Of a stretch of 64,000 bases of DNA, positions 38,262-39,497 are shown piece by piece. The notes beneath the pieces are model-generated. The model worked only from the letters and a program-made list of their open reading frames with translations, did not search any database and was not told the DNA's origin. The stretch's first letter is position 1. Every line of letters starts with the position of its first letter. Where the stretch lies: positions 422,697,319-422,761,318 of the forward strand of contig NC_066584.1 in assembly GCF_024323335.1 (NCBI RefSeq). The letters run 5' to 3'. The position numbers and the translations under genes are program-made. Source of the DNA: Lathyrus oleraceus (Eukaryota; Streptophyta; Magnoliopsida; Fabales; Fabaceae).

Positions 38262-39497
38262 GATACCAGTAAGTGTCGTGACAGCACCCACATGTGTCAT
38301 CCTTGTTTGGTGTCGGTAAACACCATTGTTTCGGTGTCTGTAAACATCGAGTATTCTCTCCAGTCATCAGTAAATGTCTGGCCATCTTTGTTTGGTGTCG
38401 GTAAACACCATTGTTTCGGTGTCTGTAAACATCGAGTCTCACTCCAGTCATCGGTAAATGTCTGGTCATTTTTGATGTCGGTAAACATCATCTTTCGATG
38501 TCTGTAAACATCGAGTCTCCACCCAGTCATCGGTAAATGTCTGGTCATTTCTTTTGATGTCGGTAAACATCATCTTTCGATGTCTGTAAACGTCGAGTTT
38601 TTCCTCAGTCATCGGTAAATGTCTGATAAATCCCCAGCTAGAAATCCCCAGTAGAGTCATCTGTAAATGTCCTATCTGGTTTCCAGTTGCGAATATTTGT
38701 TTGTCTCTCACCAATAAATTTCTCATCCCAGTCATCAGTAAATGTCTGGTCATTCTTTTTGGTATCGGTAAACGCCATTGTTTCGGTGTCGGTAAACATC
38801 GAGTCTCATCCCAGTCATCGGTAAATGTCTGGTCATTTCTTTTGATGTCGGTAAACATCATCTTTCGATGTCGGTAAACGTCGAGTCTCATCCCAGTCAT
38901 CGGTAAATGTCTGGTCAATAAAATCAAAATCCCCAGAAGTCGTCGGTAAACGTCTTGTCTGATTACACCACAAAGATTTTGTCCCTCCCCAAGTGGAGAT
39001 GCCATCGGTAAATGGCCCAGTTTCCTTCGATATCGGTAAATGTCGAATTCCCAGTTACAGTAGCCATCGGTAAATGGCCAGTTTGAAGTTGACATCGGTA
39101 AATGTCAAGTTTCTTTGAAGCCACCATCGGTAAATGGTCTTGCTTCCTTTCTACATCAAAATCTGTTTCCCAGCAGCCATCGGTAAATGGTCTGGCTGAA
39201 GTTGATATCGGTAAATATCAAGTTCTAACCATCGGTAAGTGGTTTCGCTTTTCGGAAGCTGTTTCCCAGCAGCCATCGGTAAATGGTCTGGCTGAAGTTG
39301 ATATCGGTAAATATCAAGTTCTAACCATCGGTAAATGGTTTTGCTTTTCAGAAGTTTGTTTTTCCCCAGCCGCCATCGGTAAATGGTCGTGCTGAAGCTG
39401 ATATCGGTAAATATCAAGTTTCCAGTTCTCCAACCATCGGTAAATGGTTTTGCTTTTGCTGAAGCTGTCAATTGCAGGCGTCGTCGGTAAATGACGT
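38262..39497 (+). repeat. Ogre 3' UTR array of about 37 hairpins with loop CGGTAA
   Basis: Each unit is a 5- to 8-base arm, the loop CGGTAA (sometimes CTGTAA or CAGTAA) and a matching arm. Examples: TGGTGT/ACACCA (38308-38325), TGATGT/ACATCA (38473-38490), CGATGT/ACATCG (38496-38513), TTGACAT/ATGTCAA (39089-39108), TTGATAT/ATATCAA (39202-39221), AACCAT/ATGGTT (39323-39340). In the left half three hairpins form a higher-order unit of about 80 bp. In the right half a different trio repeats at about 95-100 bp. Ogre-type 3' UTRs are known to be hypervariable and to seed satellites. Confidence 0.9.

Follow-up and report, generated by a model that had tools for sequence, protein, structure and literature searches.

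In a 64,000-nucleotide stretch of the Lathyrus oleraceus genome (contig NC_066584.1; hereafter the window), a young Ogre-type long terminal repeat (LTR) retrotransposon, termed E1 (19725-46739, + strand), carries a tandem array of 37 hairpins in which a nearly constant loop, C-N-GTAA, is held on stems whose two arms change together. This array, termed array 1, extends from 38259 to 39498 on the + strand, has stems mostly of 5 to 8 base pairs, and lies between the end of pol (∼36570) and the 3′ LTR (39629), stopping ∼130 bases short of the latter. An earlier note on this DNA had assigned the array to the 3′ untranslated region (UTR) of an Ogre element, which agrees with its site in E1. As a tandem array of variable number between pol and the 3′ LTR, it belongs with the 3′ UTR repeats of Tat elements. 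Selection acting on the sense RNA probably preserves the array, which may well act as a multivalent protein-docking site for export or packaging of the full-length RNA.

When a unit is defined as a word with no more than one mismatch to CGGTAA, array 1 holds 37 such units, with loops at 38267-39490 and a median spacing of 29 nt. The loop is exactly CGGTAA in 29 of them; the eight inexact loops are CTGTAA or CAGTAA, so that each departs from it at the second base. Thus, the constant CGGTAA of the earlier note holds at five positions, whereas the second is free. The hexamer occurs 43 times in the window, compared with 9.6±2.8 times in shuffled sequences. At stem positions 1 to 8, standard pairs are formed in 37, 36, 37, 28, 37, 30, 23 and 17 of the 37 units, and at position 9 in 11. 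If one position in one unit is counted as a cell, 205 of 222 cells are paired at positions 1-6 and 175 of 185 at positions 1-5 (162 Watson-Crick and 13 G-T). Nine of the ten unpaired cells at positions 1-5 are T-T mismatches at position 4 and the tenth is A-C; position 4 occurs as four Watson-Crick types, as G-T and as the T-T mismatch. The pairing arms, the T-T type and every arm pair quoted previously are present in the sequence. Folding the complete array to minimum energy produces the third stem pair in 33 of 37 units.

Parts of array 1 are built from higher-order blocks. On the + strand, 82-nt blocks at 38306-38625 (Tandem Repeats Finder period 82, 3.9 copies) contain three hairpin types with the stems TTTGRTGT, TTCGRTGT and CCAGTCAT, and 96-nt blocks at 39162-39420 (period 96, 2.6 copies) contain three others, AGCCAT, TTGATAT and AACCAT. 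Because units were multiplied in these blocks, the 37 stem-loops, a count that matches the earlier estimate, represent far fewer independent events.

Complementarity of the arms exceeds what repeat history produces. When arm partners in array 1 were re-dealt, pairing fell from 92.6% of cells to 71.5±2.4% and the covariation score from 0.718 to 0.326±0.036, with none of 500 re-dealings reaching either observed value. Two coarser measures separate less well: 6 pairs changed on both sides against 4.7 (reached in 23 of 500) and 15 further pair types against 12.9 (27 of 500). Sliding the partners by 1-3 columns reduces pairing to 21-44%. As a null that includes shared descent, we built trees of the units and re-placed each column's parsimony changes on the tree 2000 times, using our own implementation in the style of R-scape rather than R-scape itself. 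For positions 1-6, the observed covariation of 3.69 compares with −0.43±0.71 on the first tree and 0.16±0.75 on a tree made from flanks only; for the 21 distinct stems taken once each, it is 3.88 against −0.14±0.66. No simulated set reached the observed value (0 of 2000) in any of the three versions, so that repeat history by itself, which had been proposed as a refuting explanation, does not account for the co-varying stems. The top three of 465 column pairs ranked by covariation are stem partners, and in a + strand scan of the window for repeated words with pairing flanks, array 1 ranks first. The loop word does not bring stems with it: at the 14 copies of CGGTAA outside array 1, only 28 of 70 cells are paired. 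Likewise, in a control set of 37 IMG/VR contigs that carry three TCGGTAAA words at array-like spacing, the flanks pair at 0-3 of 4 positions, two words excepted.

The same design is found in other copies of the element. Pattern searches covered 3.795 Gb of the genome, in which ATCGGTAAATG occurs at 77,293 places, compared with 612 for the reversed pattern. We compared two non-random samples: 10 pattern-found stretches (L046-L055), all taken from a single contig within its first 8 Mb, and 37 copies (L088-L124) that are 96-97% identical across the 633 bases with which the 3′ UTR begins. The latter were drawn from 40 scored matches; the remaining three comprise the window and one match on each of the small contigs C92 and C1138. 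With the window array added there are 48 stretches; two single places without an array (L056 and L057) were left out of all counts. Units are present in 46 of the 48, in 45 of the 47 other than the window, for a total of 1372 and a range of 8-45 per stretch, some of which may cut an array; L092 and L123 contain no array within the range of the stretch. Standard pairs make up 93.1% of the cells at positions 1-5 in the 1372 units, and each of the 46 arrays reaches at least 83%, which answers the second proposed refutation, that other copies would have unpaired arms. The majority loop is CGGTAA in 41 arrays and CTGTAA in five. Single loop mismatches on paired stems fall 338 times at position 2 and 53 times across the other five positions; position 1, a C that is part of the search criterion, accounts for 18 of these 391. 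Position 2 is G in 998 units, T in 197, A in 162 and C in 15. The five arrays that are mostly CTGTAA (L100, L111, L113, L116 and L121) have changed in concert at position 2, the only free base of the loop, and the array of L052 has spacings near 77 and 62 nt and stems absent from the window (CGACAC/GTGTCG and GGCCAT/ATGGCA).

A second family shows that the design extends beyond the CGGTAA word. E2, an older relative of E1 that is split by insertions, retains on the + strand a C-terminal integrase part (1381-1860, 76% amino acid identity to E1) and the start of a 3′ UTR (10735-11400) homologous to that of E1 at ∼72% identity in two pieces. Farther along the 3′ UTR of E2, array 2 comprises 29 hairpins with a constant AAGGTTAACTT core, eight in a left part (12406-12737, + strand) and 21 in a right part (17168-18051, + strand), with stems such as CCTGA/TCAGG, TTCCGA/TCGGAA and TTCCAA/TTGGAA. 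The two parts are separated by an LTR-like stretch on the minus strand (12738-17167; 68-79% identity to the E1 LTR in its main pieces), whose insertion replaced the left arm of the unit with its core at 17169, a unit that is kept in the E2 counts. Re-dealing partners in array 2 lowers pairing from 86.2% to 80.5±1.4% and the score from 0.427 to 0.312±0.028 (each 0 of 500). The second-family core pattern occurs at 1,761 places in the genome against 5, seven further arrays of this family have the same stems, and IMG/VR contains no match to the pattern. A constant loop on co-varying stems therefore recurs in this related family, whereas the CGGTAA word does not.

Two processes could keep arms complementary, and both had been suggested at the outset: selection on an RNA hairpin, or mutation that copies one arm onto the other, by template switching in reverse transcription or in quasi-palindrome repair, with no selection at all. 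Palindromes promote template switching, a point in favor of arm copying. The two differ in how they treat mispairs. A sense-strand G-T pairs stably in the sense RNA, and an A-C would do so in the antisense. We therefore compared stems present in at least five arrays (shared), which very likely predate the insertions of their elements, with stems confined to one array (private), which we infer to be mostly later damage. The 18 shared stems contain 76 Watson-Crick cells, 9 G-T, 0 A-C and 5 others. There are 55 private stems; a single step separates 44 of them from a shared stem, and the changes in these 44 from shared Watson-Crick pairs comprise 12 G-T, 16 A-C and 12 others. The difference in G-T against A-C between shared and one-step private stems is significant (Fisher P = 0.0046). 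Since the mutational input looks even between G-T and A-C, as judged from the private stems, and shared stems contain G-T only, the changes that persist run through G-T rather than A-C.

Arm copying would erase wobbles and mismatches alike, yet shared stems hold nine G-T cells and no A-C, and a stem with the T-T mismatch is kept in 41 arrays. Nor were compensatory changes, with both arms altered to a new Watson-Crick pair, found in any of the 75 non-shared stems, the only four that lie more than two steps from a shared stem being unpaired words. Thus, once an element has inserted, the two arms do not seem to be rewritten together, although this informs only on the time after insertion. Arm copying also leaves unexplained the constancy of five of the six loop bases. 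In its favor, the second family lacks a clear bias of G-T over A-C. On balance the comparison, made on sequence, favors selection on pairing in the sense RNA, the first of the two earlier proposals, and we regard arm copying as unlikely. Hypermutation of minus-strand complementary DNA (cDNA) was also considered as a source of the bias and rejected, as it would yield A-C rather than G-T on the sense strand.

Other counts of the same bias depend on how stems are grouped. In the window array, positions 1-5 have 13 G-T to 1 A-C, or 9 to 1 by distinct stems and about 8 to 1 by lineages judged likely; positions 1-7 have 17 to 7. All 1372 units yield 400 G-T to 40 A-C, a ratio that counts copies and not events, for which reason its binomial P was set aside; when each distinct stem is counted once, whether shared or not, the ratio is 65 to 31.

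Several observations weigh against sense-strand selection or against a protein partner of the usual kind. When shared stems are compared with all private mispairs, the G-T bias weakens (P = 0.023 against A-C, and P = 0.075 against all others), the shared-stem counts are small, and the copies share descent. The antisense of array 1 folds about equally well over 998 nt (−268.7 against −264.0 kcal/mol), with z-scores of −6.23 against −3.50 for the two strands (from 20 shuffles); because the antisense folds as well, folding energies give no pointer to the sense strand. Covariation in array 2 is weaker: its tree null is reached by 6 of 2000 and 38 of 2000 sets in two versions, a separate null gives 1.74 against 0.14±0.74, two measures do no better than the shuffles (pairs changed on both sides, reached in 256 of 500, and pair types, in 390 of 500), and its core word ranks only eleventh in the window scan, behind some chance words. 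Array 2 units in the window show 12 G-T to 13 A-C, and in the second family as a whole, shared stems have 7 G-T to 6 A-C and private stems 55 to 47; over its 247 units, positions 1-6 contain 113 G-T to 81 A-C cells. The end of E2 pol contains several in-frame stops, so that damage after insertion may hide a strand bias there, but it is the first family alone that carries the strand argument. Finally, a pattern search of the E1 gag open reading frame (ORF) for a CCHC zinc knuckle, as in a classical nucleocapsid, found none.

The hairpins could instead act at the level of DNA, as cruciforms or as folds of single-stranded cDNA that aid strand transfer and repeat expansion. Array 1 lies near the polypurine tract, where plus-strand synthesis starts, the number of units ranges from 8 to 45 per stretch, and the main text of PMC7004042 describes Ogre 3′ UTR repeats as seeding satellites. 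However, a cruciform is symmetric, whereas the bias of G-T over A-C marks one strand, a property that plus-strand cDNA could still share, and a cruciform has no need of a constant loop. We consider a DNA-level function improbable.

Selection on the sense RNA would be readily understood if the hairpins act as RNA and a protein reads the loop, as we infer from the pattern of constraint. A loop that hardly varies, stems whose bases may change provided that the arms still pair, copies by the dozen, and a relative that has another loop in the same host together fit binding sites for a family-specific protein. Unit duplication combined with selection on pairing would generate numerous binding sites that share a loop but differ in their stems. 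Because two related families keep different 3′ UTR loops, the partner could be encoded by the element itself, with Gag or the ORF1 protein, evolving along with its family, as candidates. The docked protein would tag full-length RNA for export or packaging. An intron lies between the gag-pro and pol ORFs of Ogre elements and is spliced from only part of the transcripts, as described in a portion of PMC6317226, so that unspliced RNA presumably has to leave the nucleus and enter particles.

Such a transport signal might instead be read by an export factor of the host. The constitutive transport element (CTE) of Mason-Pfizer monkey virus (MPMV) sits before the 3′ LTR, much as array 1 does. The intron kept in part of Ogre RNA would call for such a signal, and structured RNAs with which retroviral and murine elements export intron-containing or unspliced RNA are described in portions of PMC7551171 and PMC12786077: the MPMV CTE, the direct repeats of Rous sarcoma virus (RSV), the RNA transport element (RTE) of intracisternal A-particles (IAP) and the MusD transport element (MTE). 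Nonetheless, different loops in two related families within one host better fit a family-specific partner, and a host-read element seems to us a rather unlikely reading. It is far less probable that the loops are decoy 5′ splice sites in which GGUAA pairs with U1 RNA to control splicing or polyadenylation: although GGUAA agrees with a portion of the consensus for 5′ splice sites, loop position 2 (the would-be −1 site) varies while the C at −2 rarely does, the reverse of that consensus (the C at −2 was itself a search criterion), and decoys do not need stems.

A broader and more tentative possibility is that 3′ UTR repeats of Ogre and other Tat elements might be a protein-docking RNA code with one loop per family, and not junk minisatellites. 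An element-encoded RNA-binding protein could then single out the full-length RNA of its own element against a background of thousands of relatives. Diverse stems would protect the repeats against loss by recombination, and the loop would preserve the binding site.

The LTRs of E1, the element that carries array 1, are 7.1 kb each and 99.8% identical (5′ LTR 19725-26834 and 3′ LTR 39629-46739, both + strand), and E1 is flanked by ATAGG on both sides. Reading along the + strand, the 5′ LTR is followed by a primer-binding-site-like GGCGACTCTGCTGGGGA (26838-26854), ORF1 (DUF7745; 27475-29316), the gag ORF (Retrotrans_gag; 29689-33114), ORFs for reverse transcriptase (RT), RNase H, an additional RNase H and integrase (33722-36570), and a polypurine-tract-like AATAGGGGCAGC (39617-39628), which abuts the 3′ LTR. 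The gag ORF stops at 33114, and RT is encoded by a later ORF. RT_RNaseH lies in the ORF at 33722-35017, and RVT_3/RNase_H (residues 61-182) and then integrase lie in the ORF at 34930-36570. E1 thus has the additional RNase H that, as a feature of Ogre (Tat clade) elements in a portion of PMC6317226, separates RNase H from integrase. It also has an extra forward ORF 5′ of gag, for which that paper names a different domain, the plant mobile domain, in 57% of Ogres. The two ORFs of at least 200 amino acids that overlap array 1 were considered as coding and rejected, as neither has a Pfam match and the block length of 82 nt is not divisible by three. Rfam returns no matches at E up to 1 in 36500-39700. 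Searches with the E1 integrase and RT ORFs found no related loci in IMG/VR, and one scan of GTDB genomes found none.

Further structured repeats occur in the LTRs of E1. Tandem hairpins with the constant loop TTCCTGT lie at 25530-25719 and recur in the 3′ LTR at 45428-45612; there are six copies, and in the final one both arms are altered, from GACTTGC/GCAAGTT to GGCTTGC/GTGAGCC. Two hairpins at 26226-26267 and 26294-26335 share the loop GTAAGTCCAGTG, and their differing left arms, ATGTCAAT and ATGCTGAT, both pair with ATTGGCAT through G-T pairs. Five related stretches around TAGGCT at 25782-26214, two of them identical, have differing outer arms; four fold to −12 kcal/mol or lower and one only to −5.6 kcal/mol. 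Words complementary to the primer-binding site, with at most five mismatches, occur in both 3′ UTRs (37773, 37846, 38066 and 38645 in E1; 11637, 12282 and 17777 in E2), four in E1 against 0.42 in shuffles and two and one in the E2 parts against 0.07 and 0.08; there are none in gag-pol and the LTR, and one against 0.32 in 46740-64000. In E2, a polypurine-like stretch (18295-18314, + strand), so judged from its sequence, precedes the presumed LTR start (TGTTGGG at 18315). Nested in E2 is a minus-strand gypsy element (1986-10724) with 2.1-kb LTRs that are 99.7% identical and ACATA on both sides. Tandem repeats at 62517-62783 contain the palindrome GTTAACCGGTTAAC.

According to the main text of PMC7004042, which cites Macas et al. 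2009, hypervariable 3′ UTR tandem repeats have been described in Tat elements, as have minisatellites of GmOgre (main text of PMC3305785) and 3′ UTR repeats of Retand (main text of PMC11963269), the last of which states that the origin and function of such repeats remain unknown. Array 1 resembles the Tat, Ogre and Retand repeats in its site between pol and the 3′ LTR, its tandem arrangement, its variable number and its family-specific sequence. It differs in that its units are hairpins with co-varying stems, whereas the known repeats are described, in these main texts, without hairpins: the three texts contain no mention of hairpin, stem or secondary structure, and "palindrom" appears only in a cited title. 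Among the matches listed, no title concerns hairpins, covariation or RNA structure in Ogre or LTR retrotransposons, and the loop word retrieved only titles that look unrelated. Relative to the literature searched, Macas et al. 2009 not among it, co-varying hairpins in these repeats are therefore new.

Ogre elements make up a large part of big legume genomes. The combination of a near-constant loop and covarying stems turns the function of their repeats into a testable question. Export of plant LTR retrotransposon RNA has not been directly studied, according to a portion of PMC12786077, and the array opens a route to the export or packaging signals of these elements. The transport elements of MPMV, RSV, IAP and MusD are likewise structured RNA, in elements with unspliced RNA to export. 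As far as they are described, each consists of a single structure, or of a few, with a fixed sequence, whereas Ogre arrays consist of 8-45 small hairpins with one loop and changing stems. We know of no Rev-like protein in Ogre elements. The likeness to Rev and the Rev response element (RRE) would be one of principle, in that many copies of an element's protein may assemble on one structured RNA; the RRE does so as one folded domain, unlike the array of hairpins in E1.
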